DNA of 64,000 nucleotides from Bacteroidota bacterium (GTDB lineage Bacteria > Bacteroidota > Bacteroidia > Chitinophagales > Chitinophagaceae), in assembly GCA_030706605.1 (NCBI GenBank), contig JAUZOE010000017.1:1-64000 (forward strand), given 5' to 3'. The notes below the pieces were generated by a model. That model saw only the letters and a program-made list of their open reading frames with translations. It was not told where the DNA came from and ran no database searches. The position numbers and the translations under genes were made by a program. This document shows, piece after piece, positions 38,824 to 50,896 of the stretch (positions within the stretch are counted from its first letter, which is position 1; every line of letters begins with the position of its first letter).

Positions 38824-40383
38824 TTATCTTTTCGGATGCAATTTTCTTCCGGCCACATATTTTTCCCTGATGATTTCATAGATCGGCTTATCATATATTT
38901 TGCTCTCTAACCACGAAATAATATCCAGGTAAGAAAAAGCTCTTTCTTCAAACTTACTGGATTCAAATTGCTTGATGGTATTCAATAATTTCTCAAATTC
39001 AGGTTTTAGTTTTCTTGCCGATAAATAAAATGATTTACGCAGGAATTTAAAAATTTCTTCTTCAACAAGGCTCAGGTTCTGCATCTTCGACATAAAACGA
39101 TACACAGATTTGATAAGATATTCGAGCAATTGAAAATTGCCTAATTCATAATGGGCAATCAGGTGAAGCAATCTGGCATAGCATTGCAAATCACTTCTGA
39201 GCGATACTTTCCAGTTGATTATTTTATTCAGATAATCGATTGCATTATTATAATCACCCGCGCCAAAATAAAGTGACGCAATTTTATAATAAAAAATCAG
39301 CGTGCGATGTTGATCCAAATAAAGTTCATATTTCTTAAGCTGGTAAGTAATTTCGTCTACTATTTTTAATCCTGACTGGAAAGTGCCTTCTAAAAAATGA
39401 CGATTAATCTTTGATATGTAGAGATAAACAAAAACCTGGATTTTATTATTATCGTTGAGTTTTACAATATCCGATTTGCCAAAATCCTCCAGAACTGAAA
39501 GTGTCTTTTCAAATGCCAGGTAATTTCTTAAAGTAAAATGCGCATTTAATAAATTATGCAACCCTTTTATATAATTACCTGTTTCAATTTTAATCATGAA
39601 AGGTTCATCCGTAAATAAATCTACCCATTTTTGGGTATGCCGGTAATACATCAAAAAGTCCTGTCGTATGAATTCATACCAGCAATAACTCTGGTGATAA
39701 TAAAGTTTTTCATAAAACCCTTGAGGGTATTTAATTTCTTCTGTAAAATGCTGTTGAAAATAATCTACTACTTCCTTTTCATCAGCCATATTTCTTGCGA
39801 GACCATTCTTTATATACCAACCATAAAGCTGGAGTGCAAGATTGGAAAGCTTCGATTCCCTGGCAAGGCGTCTATTAGTGTCATCAGTTTCTCCAGTCAA
39901 AATATCAGCCCTATCCTGTATACTTCGCGTAATATGCAAAGTCTCTATTTTTTTTTCAATGACCAACACCTCTGTCAGAAAAATAACCTGGTTATTCGAT
40001 TTCGCTGTTTCTTTTATCTTTTCAAGTATTTTCAGGCTTTGGTGATATAGCCCTTTATTGTATAGAATAATAGCAAAATCGAGTTGTTCATGCAGTTGGA
40101 TATCAATATTTTCATTGCTTTCCAGAAGCCGTAAACTTCCCAGTATTTGTTTATATAGATGCGCTTTGATATTAGGAAGCTGCTGCCTTTTTATTGAGGC
40201 AGTTTTGGTGATTAGCGCGTTTTCATCATACACAGACATCTTATCAATCGCGTCAAACAATTGTACTACCTTAAGATCATTGTTGGATGAATTTCTCTGA
40301 ACGTATAGTTTAAAATTTCTCTTTTCAGACTTTTGAAGAGAATGAATCAATTGAAATAATGAATCTGTTGACCTGTTGGGCAT
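38824..40383 (-). CDS. helical repeat protein of unknown function
   Basis: 519 residues from the ATG at 40383. I do not recognise a specific family, but the alternation of helices with TPR-like spacing (LYNKGLYHQSLKILEKIKETA, LYFGAGDYNNAIDYLNKIINW, IKSVYRFMSKM) indicates an alpha-solenoid. No signal peptide. A longer frame reaches 40464, but its extra 27 residues contain a Cys and Phe-rich segment and a possible promoter element, so the shorter start is favoured. Divergent from leuA, the two starts are 174 bases apart. Confidence 0.72.
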   Translation of the reverse strand: MPNRSTDSLFQLIHSLQKSEKRNFKLYVQRNSSNNDLKVVQLFDAIDKMSVYDENALITKTASIKRQQLPNIKAHLYKQILGSLRLLESNENIDIQLHEQLDFAIILYNKGLYHQSLKILEKIKETAKSNNQVIFLTEVLVIEKKIETLHITRSIQDRADILTGETDDTNRRLARESKLSNLALQLYGWYIKNGLARNMADEKEVVDYFQQHFTEEIKYPQGFYEKLYYHQSYCWYEFIRQDFLMYYRHTQKWVDLFTDEPFMIKIETGNYIKGLHNLLNAHFTLRNYLAFEKTLSVLEDFGKSDIVKLNDNNKIQVFVYLYISKINRHFLEGTFQSGLKIVDEITYQLKKYELYLDQHRTLIFYYKIASLYFGAGDYNNAIDYLNKIINWKVSLRSDLQCYARLLHLIAHYELGNFQLLEYLIKSVYRFMSKMQNLSLVEEEIFKFLRKSFYLSARKLKPEFEKLLNTIKQFESSKFEERAFSYLDIISWLESKIYDKPIYEIIREKYVAGRKLHPKR

Positions 40384-40426
40384 CGTAATTAATTTAAACA
40401 CAATAGCAGTGGTATCAATGCTTTCA

Positions 40427-40434
40427 CAAAAATA
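40427..40434 (-). promoter_or_regulatory. candidate -7 element for the helical repeat gene
   Basis: On the minus strand TATTTTTG matches TAnnTTTG. No good -33 element at 19-21 bases. If real, it supports the start at 40383. Confidence 0.3.
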
Positions 40435-40557
40435 CCCTCTACTTTGGAAGTGTAAATTTCCCACATTTTATTCACAAAGCGTTAGTAAAATCGATTACTT
40501 TCGAAGGTATAAAAAAACAATAACTCTCTATTTACCTTTTTCTTTTAAATTAATGCT

Positions 40558-41727
40558 ATGGATAAGATTATAATTTTTGATACTACTTTACGCGATGGAG
40601 AACAAGTTCCAGGGTGTAAATTAAATACCAATGAAAAAATTGAACTGGCATTAGAACTGGAAAGTCTTGGAGTAGATGTTATTGAAGCCGGTTTTCCCAT
40701 ATCAAGCCCCGGAGATTTTTCTTCAGTGATGGAAATTTCAAAAAGCATTACCAATGCCACCGTTTGTGCTTTATCACGTGCGGTAGAAAAAGACATTGAC
40801 GTTGCCGGACAAGCTTTAAAATATGCAAAGCGACCCCGCATACATACTGGCATAGGTACTTCTGATTTTCATATAAAGAGTAAATTCAATTCTAATCGTG
40901 AAGATATTTTAGCGCGTGCCATGCAATGTATAAAATGGGCCAGGAAGTATACGGATGATATAGAATTCTATGCAGAAGATGCGGGAAGAACAGATAATGA
41001 ATACCTGGCCAAAGTAGTGGAAGCCGTCATAAAAGCGGGTGCTACTACAGTTAATATCCCGGATACTACCGGCTATTGTTTACCCCATCAATACGGCGAA
41101 AAAATTGCTTTCCTCAAAAATAATGTAAGCAATATCGACAAGGCTGTTATCTCCTGTCATTGCCATAATGATTTAGGACTTGCTACCGCCAATTCTATTT
41201 CGGGCATCATAAACGGTGCAAGACAAATTGAATGTACAATTAACGGACTGGGTGAAAGAGCAGGAAACACTTCTTTAGAAGAAGTAGTGATGATTATTAA
41301 ACAACACAAAAATTTAGGTTTTTATACTAATATTGATGCTACAAAATTGTACCCATTAAGCAGATTGGTTTCTGACACAATGCGTATGCCGGTTCAACCT
41401 AATAAAGCAATTGTAGGTAGCAACGCATTTTCACATTCATCAGGAATACACCAGGACGGTTTTTTGAAAAATACATTGACTTATGAAATAATAAATCCTG
41501 AAGAAGTAGGCGCTGACAGTTCCAGGATAGTGCTAACAGCAAGAAGTGGACGAAGTGCTTTGGCTTATCGTTTCCAAAAACTTGGTTATGAATTCAACAG
41601 GAATGATGTAGATATTTTATATGATCGTTTTTTGAAAATAGCGGATCATAAAAAAGAAATTGAAGATGAAGATCTTTCAGAAATAGCTGAAGCCTACCAA
41701 CAAAAAACAGTCAGCTACTCTAAATAA
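40558..41727 (+). CDS. leuA: 2-isopropylmalate synthase, short form without the regulatory domain
   Basis: 389 residues. HMGL-type barrel with [12 protein letters not shown] at 8-19, FPISSPGDF near 45-53, [13 protein letters not shown] near 202-214 and a helical subdomain to the end (SGIHQDGF near 298-305). It joins acetyl-CoA and 2-oxoisovalerate, the first step of leucine synthesis. Typical enzymes of about 500 residues add a C-terminal allosteric domain; this one stops before it. It is therefore probably not feedback-inhibited by leucine through that domain. Homocitrate or citramalate synthase is possible, but the adjacent leuB and ilv genes favour LeuA. It is 78 bases before leuB. Confidence 0.85.
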
Positions 41728-41804: not shown

Positions 41805-42920
41805 ATGATAAAGAATATTGCTGTAATACCAGGAGACGGCATTGGACCTGAAGTTACCCGTGAAACTATTAAAGTGCTGAATGCTGTAGCATTAAAATTT
41901 CATCACCAGTTTAATTTCACTGAATGCCTAATGGGTGCTGTAGCCATTGACAACGCGGGAGATCCTCTGCCACAGAATACTATTGACACCTGTCTTAAAA
42001 GTGATGCTGTTTTGCTGGGAGCCATCGGGCATCCCAAATATGACAACGACTCTAATATAACAGTCCGTCCGTTAGATGGCTTACTACGATTGAGGAAAGA
42101 ATTACAATTATTTGCAAATATCAGGCCGCTGACAACTTACAAATCTTTACACCATTTGTCTCCGATAAAAGATAACCAATTAAACGGTGTTGATTTTGTC
42201 ATTTATCGTGAATTAACCGGGGGAATTTATTTTGGAAAAAAGGAAATGAATGAAGAAGGTACTCAGGCATCTGATCTTTGTATTTATCAAAAATTTGAAA
42301 TTGAGCGAATTGCAAAATTAGCCTTTGCTGCCGCGCAAAAAAGAAGAAACAAATTAACCCTTATTGATAAAGCGAATGTACTGATCACATCAAGTCTATG
42401 GAGAAAGACAGTCCAGGAAATAGCTATCGGTTATCCTGAAGTGAAAGTGGATTATCTCTATGTAGATAATGCCGCCAAGCAATTAATTATTAATCCAAAA
42501 CAGTTTGATGTCATTCTTACAGAAAATATGTTTGGAGATATCCTGAGTGATGAAGCCACAGCATTAAGCGGTTCATTAGGCTTATTGCCATCGTCTTCCA
42601 TTGGAGAAAAGAATGCTCTTTTTGAACCGATTCATGGTTCGTATCCCCAGGCTGCCGGAAAAGATATTGCCAATCCTATTGGTTCCATTTTATCCGGAGC
42701 TTTAATGATGGAACACTTTGGATTATTTGAAGAAGCAAAATCCATTAAAGATGCTGTAGAATGGACGCTGGCTCATGGTTTTGTAACAAAAGATATTGAT
42801 TCAATAAACTCATATTTCACTTCTACGATTGGTGAATTGATTAGTGATTATATCAGTAATGATATGCCTCAAAATTTGAATACCATTAACATGGCTTTCG
42901 GTCAGGCAACAATAATTTAA
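41805..42920 (+). CDS. leuB: 3-isopropylmalate dehydrogenase
   Basis: 371 residues. Isocitrate/isopropylmalate dehydrogenase family: PGDGIGPEVTRE at 9-20, GAIGHPKYD near 72-80, RKELQLFANIRP near 96-107, VIYRELTGGIYFGKK near 131-145, and FGDILSDEATALSGSLGLLPS near 244-264. It oxidises and decarboxylates 3-isopropylmalate with NAD in the cytoplasm. The isomerase genes leuC and leuD that act before it are not in the window. 59 bases separate its stop from the leader peptide of the ilv operon. Confidence 0.95.
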   Translation: MIKNIAVIPGDGIGPEVTRETIKVLNAVALKFHHQFNFTECLMGAVAIDNAGDPLPQNTIDTCLKSDAVLLGAIGHPKYDNDSNITVRPLDGLLRLRKELQLFANIRPLTTYKSLHHLSPIKDNQLNGVDFVIYRELTGGIYFGKKEMNEEGTQASDLCIYQKFEIERIAKLAFAAAQKRRNKLTLIDKANVLITSSLWRKTVQEIAIGYPEVKVDYLYVDNAAKQLIINPKQFDVILTENMFGDILSDEATALSGSLGLLPSSSIGEKNALFEPIHGSYPQAAGKDIANPIGSILSGALMMEHFGLFEEAKSIKDAVEWTLAHGFVTKDIDSINSYFTSTIGELISDYISNDMPQNLNTINMAFGQATII

Positions 42921-42930
42921 TAAAAAGTTC

Positions 42931-42961
42931 TTTGTTTTTTAAAAGGAGTACACTAAGTTTG
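42931..42961 (+). promoter_or_regulatory. promoter of the ilv operon leader
   Basis: TTTG (42931-42934), 19 bases, TAAGTTTG (42954-42961). It is a full match to the Bacteroidota consensus. The start is expected near 42968, and the leader peptide ATG follows at 42980. Confidence 0.82.
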
Positions 42962-42979
42962 CTATTCAATTATTCACCA

Positions 42980-43084
42980 ATGTTGAAAGGCAAATTTAGT
43001 AATGACATCAAAAATATTTCAGCAATACTGATTGCTGTCATAGTCATTATTACATCCTTTGAAGGAGGTGGAATTACTATTTAA
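42980..43084 (+). CDS. ilv leader peptide (34 residues)
   Basis: A short frame beginning MLKGKFSNDIKNIS and continuing AILIAVIVIITSFEGGG, then ITI and a stop at 43082-43084. Nine of the 34 residues are Ile, plus Leu and Val: the run ILIAVIVII at 43024-43050 supplies the three amino acids made by the operon behind it. The frame starts 12 bases after the predicted transcription start and ends before an intrinsic terminator. This is the hallmark of a translated attenuator leader. It probably has no function as a protein. Confidence 0.85.
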   Translation: MLKGKFSNDIKNISAILIAVIVIITSFEGGGITI

Positions 43085-43136
43085 AAAAATTAATTATTCA
43101 AAAATAGCCCCGCCTCCAAAAGAAGCGGGGTTTTTT
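43020..43136 (+). terminator. ilv attenuator: pause hairpin, antiterminator and terminator
   Basis: Three structures in one leader. Hairpin 1: CAGCAAT (43020-43026) with ATTGCTG (43031-43037), inside the Ile/Leu codons. Antiterminator: GGAGGTGG (43064-43071) with CCGCCTCC (43110-43117), extended by CTTT (43057-43060) with AAAG (43119-43122). Terminator: CCCCGC (43108-43113) with GCGGGG (43125-43130), followed by six T. Antiterminator and terminator share bases 43110-43113, so only one can form. Ribosomes stalling at 43024-43050 leave the antiterminator arm free; ribosomes reaching the stop at 43084 cover it. Confidence 0.85.
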
Positions 43137-43163: not shown

Positions 43164-44060
43164 ATGTATTACAACGACAACACTTTTATTTATTGGCAGG
43201 GAGAAATCGTAAAAGCCAGTGAGACTAAGACTGATCTGTATGGTCAAACCCTTCACTATGGTTATGGTGTTTTTGAAGGTATCCGGTCTTATAAAACAGC
43301 CTCCGGTATTACAAAAATTTTTAAAGAAGTGGAACATTTTGAAAGATTACAAAAATCTGCTGAAGCTTTGAATCTTCCCTATACATGGGCAGCCGATCAA
43401 TTAATAAAAGCAAGCTATGAAGTTTTAATCCGTAATAATTTGCAAGACGCTTATATCAGGCCATTGGTTTATGCTCCTGCTAATATGAGTTTCAATCCCA
43501 ATAAAGAATCTTTTATCGTAATTGAAGCATGGGAAATGCAACCTTTTCTGGGAGAAAAACTGTTAAGCGTTATGACATCTTCTTTTCAGCGTCCCAACCC
43601 GAAAGCATTTAAAATTGAAGCAAAGGCAACAGGCCATTATGTAAATTCCATCCTTGCCAGCCAGGAAGCAAAAGCAAACGGGTTTGACGAAGCATTACTA
43701 AAAGATATAAATGGAAATATTGCGGAAGGGCCCGGCGCTAATATTTTCATAGAAAAAGAAGGAGTTCTTTATACTCCCCAACCAGGCAGTATTCTTCCCG
43801 GAATCACCAGGGCTGCTGTTTTGGAAATATGTAAAAAACTGAACATTTCTGTTATTGAAAAAGAAATTTCACCAAAGGAAATGCAAGAAGCAGATAGTGC
43901 TTTCTTCTGCGGAACTGCTGCAGAAATCATAGGAATCGCCTCTCTTGATAAAGTCGCTTTCACAAAACCATGGAACGAAACACACGGGGCTAAAATTCAA
44001 AAAGCATATAAAGACCTCGTAACAGAAAAGAGTACACTAAAAGTATTTCAACCTGCATAA
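43164..44060 (+). CDS. ilvE: branched-chain amino acid aminotransferase
   Basis: 298 residues from the ATG at 43164 (MYYNDNTFIYWQGEIV). Class IV PLP fold: HYGYGVFEGIRSY at 31-43, EAKATGHYVNSILA with PLP Lys154, GNIAEGPGANIF near 185-196, and PGSILPGITRAAVLE near 207-221. It makes Leu, Ile and Val from their keto acids. A reading frame extends upstream to a TTG at 43059, but that part crosses the attenuator terminator and cannot be protein; it should be trimmed. It is the first structural gene behind the attenuator, with ilvD 39 bases after it. Confidence 0.95.
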   Translation: MYYNDNTFIYWQGEIVKASETKTDLYGQTLHYGYGVFEGIRSYKTASGITKIFKEVEHFERLQKSAEALNLPYTWAADQLIKASYEVLIRNNLQDAYIRPLVYAPANMSFNPNKESFIVIEAWEMQPFLGEKLLSVMTSSFQRPNPKAFKIEAKATGHYVNSILASQEAKANGFDEALLKDINGNIAEGPGANIFIEKEGVLYTPQPGSILPGITRAAVLEICKKLNISVIEKEISPKEMQEADSAFFCGTAAEIIGIASLDKVAFTKPWNETHGAKIQKAYKDLVTEKSTLKVFQPA

Positions 44061-44099: not shown

Positions 44100-45806
44100 A
44101 TGAGTAACGATTCCAAAAATTTAGACGAATTAAATAAATACAGTAAAACACTTACCCAGGATGAAACACAACCCGGCGCGCAGGCTATGTATTATGCCAT
44201 AGGTTTCAAAGAAGAAGATTTTAATAAAGCACAGGTTGGAATCGTAAGTATGGGCTGGGATGGCAACCCCTGCAACATGCATTTAAATGACCTTGCAACT
44301 GATGTAAAGAAAAGTGTGAATGCCGTGGATGGCTTATTGGGGTTACGTTTCTACACGATAGGTGTAAGTGATGGCATCAGCATGGGAACAGATGGAATGC
44401 GTTTTAGTTTGGTAAGTCGTGACTTAATCGCAGACAGTATCGAAACAAATGCCAGTTCACAATATTATGATGCCATCGTTGCTATTCCTGGTTGTGATAA
44501 AAATATGCCGGGATCAATAATGGCAATGGGAAGATTGAACCGTCCGTCCATTATGTTGTATGGTGGCACTATTGCCCCCGGGCATTATAAAGGAGAAGAC
44601 CTAAACATTGTATCTGCTTTTGAAGCATTGGGCCAAAAAATTGCGGGCAATTTAGATGAAGCTGATTTTAAAGGAATCGTTCGCCATTCATGTCCTGGAG
44701 CAGGCGCTTGCGGAGGCATGTACACTGCCAATACGATGGCGAGCGCGATTGAAGCTTTAGGAATGAGTTTGCCCTATTCGTCCAGCAACCCTGCGTTGAG
44801 CGAAGACAAGGAGAAAGAATGCGCAGCTATTGGCGCAGCAATAAAAAATATATTGCAAAAAGATATCAAACCAAAAGATATCATGACGCGCAAAGCATTT
44901 GACAATGCAATAACGGTTGTAATAGTTCTTGGTGGAAGCACCAATGCAGTATTGCATTTGATTGCTATGGCAAAAAGTGTTGACATACAATTATCTCCTG
45001 ATGATTTTCAAAGTATTAGTAATAAAATTCCGATGCTCGCTGATTTTAAACCCAGCGGAAAATATTTAATGGAAGATTTGCACAAGCACGGAGGTGTACC
45101 GGCTGTGATGAAATATTTATTAAACAAAGGTTTACTTCATGGCGATTGCATAACAGTAACAGGAAAAACAATTGCAGAGAATATAAAAGAGGCCCCTGAT
45201 TTGGATTTCGAAAAACAGGATATTATTCACCCATTAGAAAATCCGATTAAAGCCACAGGGCATTTGCAAATATTATATGGCAATCTTGCTGAAAAAGGAA
45301 GTGTTGCAAAAATTACAGGAAAAGAAGGTACCCGTTTCGAAGGCACCGCAAGAGTATTTGAAGGTGAAAAACATTTGATAGAGGGACTGGAAAGCGGGCG
45401 TGTTCATGCCGGAGATGTAGTAGTGATAAGAAACATCGGGCCTAAAGGTGCACCGGGAATGCCGGAAATGCTGAAACCAACAGGAGCCATTATCGGCGCT
45501 GGTTTGGGTAAGTCAGTTGCGTTAATTACTGATGGAAGGTTTAGTGGCGGTACACATGGATTTGTCGTCGGACACATCACTCCTGAAGCATTTGAAGGCG
45601 GATTATTAGGATTGGTAGAAGACAATGATATTATTGAAATAGATGCGGCGAAAAACACATTGAACTTAAAAGTAAGTGAAAAAGAAATTGCCAAACGAAA
45701 AGCCGCATGGAAACAACCTGCCTCAAAAGCCACAAAAGGAGTTTTATATAAATACGCAAAGTTTGTAAAAAATGCAAGTGAGGGATGTGTGACGGATGAG
45801 GAATAA
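44100..45806 (+). CDS. ilvD: dihydroxy-acid dehydratase
   Basis: 568 residues. IlvD/Edd family: GNPCNMHL with Cys58, GCDKNMPGS with Cys132 and [14 protein letters not shown] with Cys204; these three bind the iron-sulfur cluster. C-terminal [19 protein letters not shown] near 480-498. It dehydrates 2,3-dihydroxy acids, the third step for Val and Ile. Cytoplasmic. The gene lies 39 bases after ilvE and 42 before ilvB, in one tight operon. Confidence 0.97.
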
Positions 45807-45848: not shown

Positions 45849-47594
45849 ATGAATACACTTGAATTAGAAGAAGAAAAAAAAGTAAAAACATCTTCTCCAA
45901 AATCAGAAAACATTACCGGCAGTAAAGCACTTCTGGAAATTTTCCTGGCTGAAAAAGTGGAAACTATCTTTGGTTATCCGGGCGGAGCCATAATGCCTAT
46001 TTATGACGCATTGTACGATTACCAGGAAAAAATAAATCACATTTTAGTGCGCCATGAACAAGGAGGCATTCATGCTGCACAGGGATATGCAAGAACTTCA
46101 GGCCGGGTAGGTGTGGTATTCGCTACCAGCGGGCCGGGCGCTACTAACCTCGTAACAGGTTTGGCCGATGCAATGATAGACAGTACTCCCCTGGTTTGTA
46201 TTACCGGGCAGGTATTCGCACATCTCTTAGGTACCGACGCATTCCAGGAAACAGATGTGATCAACATGACAACACCTGTTACCAAATGGAATTACCAGAT
46301 AACAGATGCAACTGAAATTCCTTCTGTTTTAGCTAAGGCATTTTACATTGCCAAAAGTGGCAGGCCGGGACCGGTATTAATTGATATTACCAAAAATGCA
46401 CAATTACAAAAATTCGACTTCGAAGGATATACAAAATGCACTCATATACGTAGCTACCGCCCTAAACCCATCGTAAGGCCAGAATATATTAAAGAGGCTG
46501 CTAAACTGATCAATGAGGCTAAAAAGCCTTTTGTAATTTTTGGACAGGGAATAATTTTGGGCAAAGCAGAAAAAGAATTTAAAGCATTTATTGAAAAAGG
46601 TAACCTGCCTGCAGCCTGGACTGTTCTCGGATTAAGTGCTCTCCCAACTGATCATCCGCTGAACGTAGGAATGCTTGGCATGCATGGAAATTATGGCCCC
46701 AACGTTTTGACAAATGATTGTGACGTATTAATTGCTGTAGGTATGCGTTTCGATGATCGGGTTACAGGAAGACTGGATAAATATGCCAAACAGGCAAAAA
46801 TAATCCATCTTGATATTGACCCATCCGAGATTGATAAAAATGTAAAAACAACAGTGGCTGTATGGGGAGATTGCAAAGAAACCCTTCCATTACTAAACGA
46901 ACTGATTGAACAAAAAAAACATACACAGTGGTTACAGAAATTTGAAGAATATAAACAAAAAGAAATTGAAAGTTGCATAAAAAAAGACTTATATCCTACT
47001 TCAGAACAGTTAAGTATGGGAGAGGTAGTTAATGCGCTTAACGACTTAACAGGTGGCAACGCAGTTATTGTTACAGATGTAGGTCAACACCAGATGGTTG
47101 GGTGTCGTTATGCAAAATTTAACCAATCCAAAAGCAATGTTACTTCGGGCGGCTTAGGCACTATGGGTTTTGCTTTGCCGGCAGCCATCGGTGCAAAATT
47201 TGGCGCACCTGAAAGAACGGTAGTGGCAATAATAGGTGATGGAGGTTTTCAAATGACATTGCAGGAATTAGGCACTATTATGCAAAATAACGTCAATGTA
47301 AAAATAATCATTCTCAATAATAGTTACCTGGGCATGGTACGCCAATGGCAGGAATTATTTAACGAAAGAAGATATTCTTTTACCAACATTGAAAGCCCTG
47401 ATTTTGTAGCGTTAGCAAATTCTTATCATATAAAAAGTCAGAAAGTTACCGACAGGGATGTATTAAAAAATGTATTAAAAGAAATGCTGGACCACCAGGG
47501 CGCCTATTTACTGGAAGTAATAGTAGCTAAAGAAGATAATGTCTTTCCTATGGTTCCGCAAGGGTGCAGTGTTTCTGAAATACGTTTAGCTTAA
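45849..47594 (+). CDS. ilvB: acetolactate synthase, large (catalytic) subunit
   Basis: 581 residues. TPP enzyme with FGYPGGAIMPIYDAL near 41-55, Glu70 in VRHEQGG which activates TPP, YARTSGRVGVVFATSGPGATN, central domain GMRFDDRVTGRL near 297-308, and TPP-binding GDGGFQMT...NNSYLGMV near 458-488. It condenses pyruvate with pyruvate or 2-oxobutyrate. The N-terminus (LELEEEKKVKTSSPKSE) is an added charged tail. The regulatory subunit gene follows after 39 bases. Confidence 0.96.
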   Translation: MNTLELEEEKKVKTSSPKSENITGSKALLEIFLAEKVETIFGYPGGAIMPIYDALYDYQEKINHILVRHEQGGIHAAQGYARTSGRVGVVFATSGPGATNLVTGLADAMIDSTPLVCITGQVFAHLLGTDAFQETDVINMTTPVTKWNYQITDATEIPSVLAKAFYIAKSGRPGPVLIDITKNAQLQKFDFEGYTKCTHIRSYRPKPIVRPEYIKEAAKLINEAKKPFVIFGQGIILGKAEKEFKAFIEKGNLPAAWTVLGLSALPTDHPLNVGMLGMHGNYGPNVLTNDCDVLIAVGMRFDDRVTGRLDKYAKQAKIIHLDIDPSEIDKNVKTTVAVWGDCKETLPLLNELIEQKKHTQWLQKFEEYKQKEIESCIKKDLYPTSEQLSMGEVVNALNDLTGGNAVIVTDVGQHQMVGCRYAKFNQSKSNVTSGGLGTMGFALPAAIGAKFGAPERTVVAIIGDGGFQMTLQELGTIMQNNVNVKIIILNNSYLGMVRQWQELFNERRYSFTNIESPDFVALANSYHIKSQKVTDRDVLKNVLKEMLDHQGAYLLEVIVAKEDNVFPMVPQGCSVSEIRLA

Positions 47595-47633: not shown

Positions 47634-48272
47634 ATGAACAATCAACAAAAGAAAGAGGCCCCTGCTGACACTATACAAGCACCAGGTAAGCAGGAGTATA
47701 CTATTACAGCCTATACAGAAAACCAGATTGGTATCCTCAACCGGATTTCTATTATTTTTTCTCGTAGAAAAATTAATATACAAAGTTTGAATACTTCTCC
47801 TTCTGAAGTGCCCGGCATTCATCGGTTTAATATAGTGATTGATGAAACTGAAGAAGTAGTAAAAAAACTGGCGCGCCAGATTGAGAAACAGGTAGATGTT
47901 TTAAAGGCATACTATAACACCAATGATGAGATTATCTGGCAGGAAATGAGTTTATATAAAATACCTACAGATGCTATTACTGAAAAAGTAAAAGTAGAAA
48001 GATTGCTAAGAGAATTTGGCGCCAGGGCGGTTGCTATTCGCAAAGATTACACGGTATTTGAAACTACCGGCCACCGTGAAGAAACAGATAAACTTATTAA
48101 ATTCCTGGAACCATTTGGGTTAATTGAATTTGTAAGAAGTGCGAGAGTCGCTATTATAAAGGACAGCAACGGTTTTCATGAAAAAGTAAAGGAATTCGAA
48201 AGAAGAGAACCCGGTGAAGAAGTAGTGGAAAATGAATATTTAGATAAACAGGAAGAAGTATTCAGTATGTAA
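47634..48272 (+). CDS. ilvN: acetolactate synthase, small (regulatory) subunit
   Basis: 212 residues. An ACT domain at about 20-95 (YTITAYTENQIGILNRISIIFSRRKINIQSL) and a C-terminal small-subunit domain (TEKVKVERLLREFGARAVAIRKDYTVFETTGHREETDKLIKFLEPFGLIEFVRSARVAI). It is longer than the about 160-residue proteobacterial forms, with an acidic tail at 185-212. It gives the large subunit sensitivity to valine-type feedback. 188 bases separate it from ilvC, with no recognised promoter between. Confidence 0.95.
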   Translation: MNNQQKKEAPADTIQAPGKQEYTITAYTENQIGILNRISIIFSRRKINIQSLNTSPSEVPGIHRFNIVIDETEEVVKKLARQIEKQVDVLKAYYNTNDEIIWQEMSLYKIPTDAITEKVKVERLLREFGARAVAIRKDYTVFETTGHREETDKLIKFLEPFGLIEFVRSARVAIIKDSNGFHEKVKEFERREPGEEVVENEYLDKQEEVFSM

Positions 48273-48460: not shown

Positions 48461-49519
48461 ATGGCAACATTAAATTTTGCAGGTACGCAGGAAAACGTAG
48501 TAACAAGGGAAGAATTCCCATTATCAAAAGCGCAGGAAATTCTCAAGGATGAAGTAGTAGCTGTTATCGGGTATGGTGTACAAGGTCCGGGGCAGGCGCT
48601 CAATCAAAAAGATAATGGTATCAACGTAATAGTAGGACAAAGAAAAAATTCAAAGAGTTGGGATAAAGCCGTAAGTGATGGTTTCGTAGAAGGACAGACT
48701 TTATTTGAAATAGAAGAAGCACTGGCAAAAGGAACCATCATTTGTTATTTACTAAGCGATGCTGCGCAAATTGCTTTGTGGCCAACAGTAAAAAAACATT
48801 TAACTCCGGGCAAAGCGCTATATTTTTCTCATGGCTTTGGAATTACTTATAATGACCAAACCGGCATCGTTCCTCCAAAAGATGTGGATGTATTTTTAGT
48901 AGCTCCTAAAGGTTCCGGTACTTCATTACGCAGAATGTTTTTACAGGGGCGTGGACTCAACAGCAGTTATGCCATTTTCCAGGATGCTACCGGCAAAGCA
49001 TTTGAAAGAGTAGTTTCTCTTGGTATTGCTATAGGTTCAGGTTATCTATTTGAAACCAATTTTAAGAAAGAAGTTTATAGTGATCTTACAGGTGAGCGTG
49101 GTACCTTGATGGGTGCTATACAGGGAATTTTTGCCGCACAGTTTGAAGTACTTCGTAAAAATGGCCACTCCCCTTCTGAAGCATTTAATGAAACTGTAGA
49201 AGAACTCACCCAATCATTAATGCCGCTCGTTGCTGAAAACGGGATGGACTGGATGTATGCCAACTGTTCTACAACTGCGCAACGCGGTGCATTGGATTGG
49301 TGGAAAAAATTCCGTGATGCTACCTTACCGGTATTCTCAGATTTATATGAAAGTGTTGCTACCGGCAAAGAGGCTGCCCTTTCTATAGAAAGCAATAGCA
49401 AACCTGATTACAGGGTAAAATTAGAAGCTGAGTTGAAAGAACTTAGAGATAGTGAATTATGGCAGGCCGGAAAAACGGTTCGCAGCTTAAGGCCCGAAAA
49501 TCAGCCTTCAAAAGTTTAG
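48461..49519 (+). CDS. ilvC: ketol-acid reductoisomerase
   Basis: 352 residues, class I size range. NADPH site GYGVQGPGQALN near 37-48, HGFGITYNDQ near 126-135, PKGSGTSLRR near 149-158, and metal-binding EAFNETVEELTQSLMPL near 243-259 with the acidic ligands, then YANCSTTAQRGALDWWKKF. It reduces and rearranges acetolactate and acetohydroxybutyrate. The N-terminal segment (MATLNFAGTQENVVTREEFPLSKAQEIL) is family-typical for Bacteroidota. It lies between ilvN and ilvA in the same direction. Confidence 0.96.
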   Translation: MATLNFAGTQENVVTREEFPLSKAQEILKDEVVAVIGYGVQGPGQALNQKDNGINVIVGQRKNSKSWDKAVSDGFVEGQTLFEIEEALAKGTIICYLLSDAAQIALWPTVKKHLTPGKALYFSHGFGITYNDQTGIVPPKDVDVFLVAPKGSGTSLRRMFLQGRGLNSSYAIFQDATGKAFERVVSLGIAIGSGYLFETNFKKEVYSDLTGERGTLMGAIQGIFAAQFEVLRKNGHSPSEAFNETVEELTQSLMPLVAENGMDWMYANCSTTAQRGALDWWKKFRDATLPVFSDLYESVATGKEAALSIESNSKPDYRVKLEAELKELRDSELWQAGKTVRSLRPENQPSKV

Positions 49520-49573: not shown

Positions 49574-50896
49574 ATGAATGAGTTTTTATCGTTAAATCAA
49601 TCTTTACAAAACTCTTCAGAAAATGAAGCTACCAATTTCCAGACAGGAGTTGGTAGCTTTTTAGTTCCTGAAGGTATTCTCTCTGCTTCTAAAAAACTGA
49701 AAGATGTCATTAACAGGACACCCCTCATATACAATCTTAATTTATCAAAAAAATACCAATGCAATGTCTATCTCAAACGAGAAGACTTGCAAATTGTACG
49801 TTCTTATAAATTAAGAGGAGCTTACAATATGATGAGTAGTTTGTCTGCAGAACAACTTCAGCAAGGTGTAGTATGCGCCAGTGCCGGGAATCATGCACAG
49901 GGCTTTGCCTATTCCTGCAAAAAATTAAATTGTAAAGGCATTGTGTTTATGCCGGTGATCACCCCGAGGCAAAAAGTGAACCAGACAAAAATGTTTGGTG
50001 AAAATTATATAGAAATAATACTTACCGGAGATTCATTTGAAGAATGCGCAGAGGTAGCAAAACAATATACCCGGGAAAATAATAAAATATTTATCCCACC
50101 TTTTGATAATTATAAAATTATAGAGGGGCAGGCAACAGTGGGCCTTGAAATTCTCGAAGACCAGCCGAAAGTTGATTTACTTTTTGTGCCTGTTGGTGGC
50201 GGAGGGTTGGCCGCTGGCATAGGCACTTATTTTAAATTTTTTTCTCCGCAAACCCGAATCATCGGAGTAGAACCAGTAGGTGCGCCTTCCATGTCAGAAG
50301 CATTTAAAGCAGGACACCCTGTTACTTTAAGCCATATCGATCATTTTGTAGATGGAGCATCAGTAAACAGGGTTGGCGATATTACTTATTCAATCTGCAA
50401 AGAGGTGCTTACTGAAATGCATTTAGTTCCGGAAGGAAAAGTTTGTACCACTATTTTAAAATTATACAATGAAGATGCGATAGTAGCTGAACCTGCAGGA
50501 GCTCTTTCTATTGCTGCCTTAGATGATTATAGCGAAGAAATTAAAGGTAAGAATATTGTATGTGTACTCAGTGGTGGCAATAATGACATTGACCGCATGC
50601 AGGAGATTAAGGAGCGATCTTTGCAATATGAAGGGTTAAAACATTATTTCCTGATCCGCTTTGTTCAAAAGCCGGGAGCATTAAAACAATTTGTAAATGA
50701 AGTTCTGGGACCAACAGACGATATAGCCCGGTTTGAATATATAAAGAAACACAACAAAGAATCCGGCCCCGCATTAGTGGGCATTGAACTAAGATCAAAA
50801 AAAGACTATGATGCATTATTGAATAATTTTCATTTATTCAATATCAACTATACCGAGTTGAAAAAAAACGATGACGCATTTGGATACTTAGTTTAA
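49574..50896 (+). CDS. ilvA: threonine ammonia-lyase (threonine deaminase)
   Basis: 440 residues. Fold type II PLP enzyme: LKREDLQIVRSYKLRGAYNMM with PLP Lys79, ASAGNHAQGFAYSCKKL near 101-117, PVGGGGLAAGIGTYF near 212-226, SGGNNDIDR near 334-342, and one C-terminal ACT-like regulatory domain of about 85 residues (HYFLIRFVQKPGALKQFVNEVLGP). It makes 2-oxobutyrate for isoleucine. One regulatory domain rather than two suggests the short biosynthetic form. Last gene of the operon; a 288-base gap follows with no clear terminator. Confidence 0.95.
   Translation: MNEFLSLNQSLQNSSENEATNFQTGVGSFLVPEGILSASKKLKDVINRTPLIYNLNLSKKYQCNVYLKREDLQIVRSYKLRGAYNMMSSLSAEQLQQGVVCASAGNHAQGFAYSCKKLNCKGIVFMPVITPRQKVNQTKMFGENYIEIILTGDSFEECAEVAKQYTRENNKIFIPPFDNYKIIEGQATVGLEILEDQPKVDLLFVPVGGGGLAAGIGTYFKFFSPQTRIIGVEPVGAPSMSEAFKAGHPVTLSHIDHFVDGASVNRVGDITYSICKEVLTEMHLVPEGKVCTTILKLYNEDAIVAEPAGALSIAALDDYSEEIKGKNIVCVLSGGNNDIDRMQEIKERSLQYEGLKHYFLIRFVQKPGALKQFVNEVLGPTDDIARFEYIKKHNKESGPALVGIELRSKKDYDALLNNFHLFNINYTELKKNDDAFGYLV

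Follow-up and report, generated by a model that had tools for sequence, protein, structure and literature searches.

The window analyzed here is a 64,000-nt stretch of a 4.27-Mb Chitinophagaceae genome. It contains the gene order leuA-leuB-ilvE-ilvD-ilvB-ilvN-ilvC-ilvA, assigned with NCBIfam profiles, and a putative transcription attenuator occupies the interval between leuB and ilvE, its first downstream gene (Table 1). No obvious leader was seen by eye upstream of leuA. Any read-through of a leuAB transcript would meet the attenuator as well.

Table 1 Genes and parts of the putative attenuator at the ilv locus of the window
Feature	Coordinates	Strand	Basis
leuA	40558-41727	+	NF002086 over cut-off
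leuB	41805-42920	+	TIGR00169 over cut-off
Promoter: TTTG 42931-42934 (-33 type), 19 nt, TAAGTTTG 42954-42961 (-7 type)	42931-42961	+	Sequence
Strand 1, candidate protector: UUCACC just 5' of the leader ATG, partner GGUGGA 43067-43072	42973-42978	+	Minimum-energy fold; region covaries with strand 2 in relatives
Putative leader peptide ORF, 34 codons and TAA, MLKGKFSNDIKNISAILIAVIVIITSFEGGGITI; ATG at 42980, TAA ends at 43084	42980-43084	+	Sequence; counterparts in 98 leaders
Regulatory codon run ILIAVIVII	43025-43051	+	Sequence; coding constraint in relatives
Strand 2, antiterminator 5' strand: GGAGGTGG (RNA GGAGGUGG)	43064-43071	+	Fold, conservation, covariation, comparison with control terminators
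Strand 3, antiterminator 3' strand: CCGCCTCC (RNA CCGCCUCC), overlaps 5' arm of terminator	43110-43117	+	Fold, covariation
Intrinsic terminator: stem 43106-43113 with 43125-43132, six T 43131-43136	43106-43136	+	Fold, covariation
ilvE; ATG at 43164	43164-44060	+	TIGR01122 over cut-off
ilvD	44100-45806	+	TIGR00110 over cut-off
ilvB	45849-47594	+	TIGR00118 over cut-off
ilvN	47634-48272	+	TIGR00119 over cut-off
ilvC	48461-49519	+	TIGR00465 over cut-off
ilvA	49574-50896	+	TIGR02079 over cut-off

The Bacteroidota-type promoter proposed in the initial annotation of this DNA is present by sequence, with a TTTG that we take to be the -33 form. For the -7 box, TAnnTTTG is given in PMC9723704, and the T, A, T, and T of this box (42954, 42955, 42958, and 42959) were invariant across 26 aligned leaders. 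We infer a transcription start near 42967. A simple scan for sigma-70 sites predicted 4 where 4.1 were expected, and these were rejected as chance. No Shine-Dalgarno sequence was found ahead of the leader ATG in the window. The 34-codon frame with its ILIAVIVII run was confirmed, although the run had been placed one base too early (43024-43050).

The whole leader RNA was strongly structured, with a folding z of -5.17 relative to shuffles. The predicted antiterminator of the window comprises 8 outer and 6 inner pairs (-15.5 kcal/mol, z -3.07, matched by 1 of 200 shuffles), and the terminator folds at -16.1 kcal/mol (z -3.89, matched by 0 of 200 shuffles). The terminator had been described as 43108-43113 paired with 43125-43130 and six T; it was found with the slightly longer stem given in Table 1. 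In the case of the antiterminator, proposed as 43057-43071 with 43110-43122, the core 43064-43071 with 43110-43117 was predicted, but the wider pairing (43057 with 43122) was not. As claimed, bases 43110-43113 are common to both structures, which makes them mutually exclusive. A simple scan reported the terminator hairpin on the minus strand only; the probable cause is a C-A mismatch on the plus strand that appears as G-T on the minus strand.

A search with the IlvE protein yielded 30 loci, 25 of which carried a corresponding leader and terminator; among these, L024 has an unclear start codon, and L013 and L015 have terminators identified by eye. The other five (L010, L017, L023, L029, and L030) had no leader or terminator in the 420 nt inspected. 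A covariance model was made from 26 leader sequences. Run against 296 genomes of the phylum, it gave 20 at E ≤0.01, 7 of those in Chitinophagaceae (window's genome included), and it had a match in 142 of 244 Chitinophagaceae genomes, spread over 64 of 98 genera. We inspected 95 matched loci, consisting of the 30 best and 60 weaker ones from the family search and 5 from the phylum search. An ilvE or ilvD match lay within the fetched stretch at 82 of them, and these included every inspected match at E ≤7.9e-6 with the sole exception of L045. Of the remaining 13 loci, seven are leaders with a pheA-type gene behind them (L189, L191, L200, L201, L202, L205, and L206), and in L198 a Tyr leader precedes a gene of the phenylalanine hydroxylase type. 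L203 and L204 look like chance matches, and L193 and L195 come from the same genus as L189. The locus L045 is an orphan ilv leader with terminator in genome G033, with no ilv gene behind it; the gene that follows resembles, as judged by eye, the window gene at 38824-40464.

Among 88 Chitinophagaceae genomes examined, 65 contained ilvD, and a leader at ilv genes was found in 50 of these 65 compared to 0 of the 23 genomes without ilvD, one of which (G348) carries just the Tyr leader of L198. The 15 ilvD genomes lacking a leader at ilv genes comprised 13 with no match and 2 with matches elsewhere, located before a pheA-type gene (G007) or being the orphan (G033). In 48 of the 50 leader genomes, ilvD started 59-1774 nt downstream on the same strand; in the other two (G333 and G361), ilvE was behind the leader. 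The element is common in Chitinophagaceae. At a lax threshold, the model found no second ilv leader in the window's genome (next best E 0.17, chance by appearance); the same search missed the Phe, His, and Trp leaders of this genome, which were found via the upstream stretches of their genes. Outside the family, a candidate leader was present in 21 of 60 ilvD-upstream stretches, three of which (L099, L118, and L129) were dropped as unconvincing, and 0 of 5 such stretches from family f2 of the same order had a candidate. The 18 kept stretches hold 21 leaders, with strand 2 complementary to the terminator arm (shuffle p ≤0.05) in 17 of the 21. In three genomes outside the family (L106, L107, and L135), a tandem pair of Ile/Val leaders, both followed by a separate terminator, lies 1.0-1.3 kb upstream of ilvD.

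For comparison among relatives, 7 of 113 leader loci were removed, namely the orphan L045 and L200-L205 (pheA leaders or chance matches), together with 8 duplicates, leaving 98 non-redundant leaders. The promoter, codon run, strand 2, and terminator were the conserved parts of the alignment. In the terminator, 98.7% of cells were paired, and 56 cells were changed on both sides compared to 6.5 in shuffles (none of 500 reached this value) and 0-19 in slid versions, so that the covariation anticipated for this stem in the initial annotation was clearly positive. The result for the antiterminator was also positive but modest. Here, 89.7% of cells were paired (51-71% in slid versions), rising to 95.3% in the core helix, and the covariation score was 0.106 compared to 0.083 in shuffles (0 of 500 reached it) and 0.018-0.068 in slid versions. 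Eleven cells were changed on both sides compared to 2.3 in shuffles (again 0 of 500); however, slid antiterminators had 7-23 such cells and were not exceeded by this count, the lone lower value being that of slide +3 (3 cells), and the number of pairs with a double-sided change, 3, was reached by 92 of 500 shuffles. We therefore regard the predicted antiterminator as strongly conserved, with covariation that is real but modest. In one compensatory group (L169, L174, L183, and L187), the terminator arm CCACTTCC replaces CCGCCTCC, and three of the four have the strand 2 GGAAGTGG.

A blind comparison scored the region 62-20 nt before each terminator for complementarity to the terminator arm. A z of -2.5 or lower was obtained for 85 of the 98 leaders compared to 10 of 95 control terminators, and for 5 of 38 control terminators when a stricter control stem score was applied; these control sets exclude 133 (95-set) and 86 (38-set) terminators accompanied on either strand by an Ile/Val/Leu-rich ORF. 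Two runs with stricter filters retained 84 and 81 of the 98 leaders at this level, but just 3 control terminators each.

Counterparts of the leader ORF were found in all 98 leaders, 94 of them with an ATG start. The last nine codons of the run are 94.9% Ile/Val/Leu (Ile 54%, Val 37%, Leu 4%). Because Ile and Val make up most of the run, the attenuator should mainly sense these two amino acids; leucine, included in the sensing originally proposed, contributes little to the codons. Conservation of the branched-chain run itself was strongly positive: 95.7% of 3043 single-base differences between run codons (pairs not independent) remained Ile/Val/Leu, compared to 53.4% expected. These differences fell mostly in the third codon position (377, 43, and 2623 for positions 1, 2, and 3). 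The pattern was absent just past the stop codon (425, 457, and 522), and the part of the ORF ahead of the run showed little coding pattern (221, 146, and 221). This distribution points to strong coding constraint on the Ile/Val codons of a putatively translated ORF. The distance from the run end to strand 2 had a median of 11 nt with quartiles of 10-11 (98 leaders; the search started at the run end), and that between strand 2 and the last base of the stop codon a median of 5 nt with quartiles of 1 to 8.75, strand 2 encoding the Gly-rich end of the peptide. The footprint of a ribosome extends about 12 nt 3' of the codon being read (PMC4833913); with this spacing, a ribosome in the run would leave strand 2 free, and a ribosome at the stop would cover it.

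A leader ORF, cognate codons, mutually exclusive antiterminator and terminator, conservation, fixed spacing, and a place before ilv genes are features of the sequence itself. According to the NCBIfam gene names, and to the matches at ilvE or ilvD in relatives, the amino acids presumably sensed are the products of the downstream operon. We consider it very probable that the element is a ribosome-mediated (trp-type) transcription attenuator of ilvEDBNCA that senses charged Ile-tRNA and Val-tRNA; the classical attenuation reading of the initial annotation is in this way supported by stems, codon run, and geometry in relatives. RNA polymerase would start near 42967 and a ribosome at 42980. When Ile or Val is short, the ribosome would stall within 43025-43051, with its leading edge no further than about 43063, so that strand 2 would be free to pair with strand 3 ahead of synthesis of the terminator 3' arm, and transcription would enter ilvE. 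When both are sufficient, the ribosome would reach the stop at 43084 and cover strand 2, the terminator would form, and an RNA of about 170 nt would be released. In the least certain step, if no ribosome has started, strand 2 could pair with the start region (strand 1), favoring termination.

Constrained folds were computed for these states, with the strand 1 start region also masked in those with a stalled ribosome. Before the 3' arm exists, the antiterminator formed in 89 of 98 leaders with a stalled ribosome and in 96 of 98 without a ribosome. Once the full terminator was present, the antiterminator persisted in 4 of 98 with the ribosome stalled; since the complete terminator outcompetes it, the switch must be kinetic. 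With the ribosome at the stop, strand 2 was unpaired in 97 of 98, largely a consequence of the mask.

The identity of the upstream strand was examined separately. For 67 of 98 leaders, the fold predicted for the free RNA had strand 2 paired mostly with the 5' UTR. Compared with its own shuffles, the start region did not pair unusually well with strand 2 (mean z -0.31; z ≤-1.5 in 17 of 98 leaders); the composition of this region is itself biased, and the protector claim is therefore carried by a matched test, in which each start region was paired with its own strand-2 region or with those of other leaders. For 57 representatives of <70% identity, the regions -14 to 0 and -8 to +6 gave z values of -5.3 and -6.0, compared to |z| ≤2.6 in the other 17 test positions (14 nt each, -44 to +78) and -7.55 for the terminator arm as positive control. 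With 32 representatives of <62% identity, the corresponding values were -3.9 and -4.3, with the control at -5.77 and the other positions at ≤2.2. As the other positions share the same ancestry, this argues against relatedness as the cause of the start-region signal. Pairing of strand 2 was also stronger with leader start regions (mean -7.77 kcal/mol) than with the starts of the downstream ilv genes (-2.99 kcal/mol, n=95).

The protector is energetically weaker than the antiterminator, which wins in the 96 of 98 folds without ribosome and 3' arm, and any part it plays in untranslated RNA would accordingly be kinetic; full-length folds combined protector and terminator in 72 of 98 leaders. In the window, 46 nt separate strand 1 from the run downstream of it. 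A stalled ribosome would therefore leave strand 1 exposed, but a following ribosome at the start codon could cover it. The initial annotation had instead placed a hairpin in the run codons. This hairpin is present in the window (z -2.58 relative to codon-order shuffles) but weaker in general (mean z -1.31, 98 leaders), and as an upstream strand it is weakly supported. The best-supported candidate is thus the leader start region, not the hairpin. Its apparent covariation with strand 2 is new here, and it is the most original and the least proven part of this proposal.

Similar arrangements were found at other amino acid genes. Outside the window, its genome carries MTFAKANTGFYFSYYFRNSPGCLC before a pheA-type gene (PF00800; Phe/Tyr leader, L213), MKQTIHIHHHHLLPIGKPC before hisG (His leader, L225), and MKINNTYNSWWHTIS before a trpE-type gene (PF04715; Trp leader, L226). 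Each is followed by a terminator-like hairpin, identified by script for pheA and by eye for hisG and trpE. A pheA-type gene was present in 30 of 40 Chitinophagaceae genomes, and a Phe/Tyr leader (at least 4 Phe/Tyr in 8 codons) with terminator was found at 29 of the 30 pheA loci, window's genome included, and was not found at L248. In the matched test, strand 1 of the pheA leaders fell inside the ORF, with the strongest signal at +10 to +24 (z -5.2) and a second, weaker one at +58 to +72 (z -3.1; relatives not thinned in either case). Phe/Tyr leaders preceded prephenate-dehydratase genes at L189, L191, L200-L202, L205, L206, and L227-L255. A PF00351 (phenylalanine hydroxylase) match occurred in 10 of 60 Chitinophagaceae genomes, and 5 of 9 loci read (L223 and L224 left out) had a Tyr-rich leader upstream of the gene, with a hairpin and T run recognized by eye. 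These leaders before phenylalanine-hydroxylase-type genes (L216, L217, L220, L221, and L222, e.g. MQQNRNIQAVYYYYYSQRYCLE) are candidates for a Tyr-sensing attenuator acting on the conversion of Phe to Tyr. His-rich leaders were seen outside the family at L060, L058, and L050, the latter two read by eye on the reverse strand; L060 (MKNFNNTYHHHHHSNALGVRR) precedes, by eye, a hisG-like protein.

Other explanations of the ilv element were weighed against this evidence. The hairpin might be the ordinary terminator of a leuAB transcript, followed by the ilvE operon, with the short ORF incidental. The end of leuB at 42920, just upstream, and the terminator-like appearance of the hairpin on the minus strand fit this reading, but the promoter-like sequence after leuB, the coding constraint on the codon run, and a complementarity to the terminator arm far more frequent than at control terminators render it very improbable. 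Marginally less probable still is a metabolite riboswitch, T-box, or protein-bound leader in which the ORF is passive. A strongly structured leader RNA (z -5.17) would be expected of such an element; however, it is the promoter, the codon run, strand 2, and the terminator that are conserved in the alignment, and a search of 4227 Rfam families, T-box among them, gave zero matches at gathering score. A permissive Rfam search returned 11 matches, all under the gathering score of their own family, such as Thr_leader (26.5 vs 55 bits) and PyrR (28.4 vs 54).

To an equally slight degree, we credit the possibility that the hydrophobic 34-residue peptide is a functional small membrane protein and that the RNA features serve its own mRNA. 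The hydrophobic core and the corresponding ORF in 98 leaders are compatible with this; against it, the Gly-rich end is encoded by strand 2, the leaders of other families preserve the codon type and not the peptide sequence, and each of the Phe/Tyr, His, and Trp leaders stands ahead of a gene from the matching pathway. The trp-type attenuator of ilvEDBNCA remains by far our preferred explanation.

The enteric ilv, his, phe, and trp leaders are trp-type attenuators. A survey by Vitreschak (2004) reportedly touches on attenuators of this type, and one by Lopatovskaya (2010) is said to survey attenuators and may cover Bacteroidota. The element described here resembles the enteric leaders in its leader peptide with cognate codons, its alternative antiterminator and terminator, and the biosynthetic operon behind them. 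It differs from them in its Bacteroidota-type promoter, in the lack of a Shine-Dalgarno sequence before the window leader ATG, in a candidate protector at the leader start region, and in an unrelated sequence (no Rfam match).

Attenuation was taken in the initial annotation to be little described in this group, but strong clues for leader-peptide attenuation before amino acid operons are already given for Flavobacterium psychrophilum, with pheA and hisG elements named (PMC9723704). Those attenuators are of the same phylum, precede amino acid operons as 5' elements of pheA and hisG, and likewise have no Rfam match; the main text of that paper makes no mention of ilv, and its attenuation section contains no covariation or spacing analysis. 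As leader attenuation has been inferred there, the ilv element adds a well-documented case of a kind known in the phylum. Short ORFs reminiscent of such leaders are reported for Bacteroides thetaiotaomicron (PMC7366714). The ilv element is not named in the available portions of PMC2965389 and PMC8632094, and no description of this ilv element was apparent by title or abstract opening among the matches listed, mostly open-access literature. The ilvB leaders of Actinobacteria (PMC1262725, PMC10272879, PMC11857589) are similar in having an Ile/Val/Leu codon run and a terminator before ilvB, but they belong to another phylum, and their codons overlap the terminator hairpin (PMC1262725). Altering the codons of an ilvB leader of similar appearance was without effect in Streptomyces coelicolor (PMC1262725), which counts against an attenuator reading.

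A broader proposal, to which we give even odds, has two parts. In Chitinophagaceae, strand 1 of the ilv attenuator would be the leader's own translation-start region, and the switch would be set by leader initiation and not by stalling alone. Bacteroidia would, in addition, possess a broad repertoire of such attenuators (for Ile/Val, Phe/Tyr, His, Trp, and, ahead of phenylalanine hydroxylase, Tyr), some of them tandem, in a phylum that largely starts translation without Shine-Dalgarno pairing. For classical attenuation, ribosome and polymerase must be closely coupled, and translation of the leader must start promptly; to our knowledge, such coupling has been little studied in Bacteroidota. A family-wide attenuator with narrow spacing between codons and antiterminator and with a start-region strand would offer a direct way to test coupling in this phylum. 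It also represents an RNA element that Rfam lacks, and it points the way to amino acid gene regulators in many uncultured genomes.
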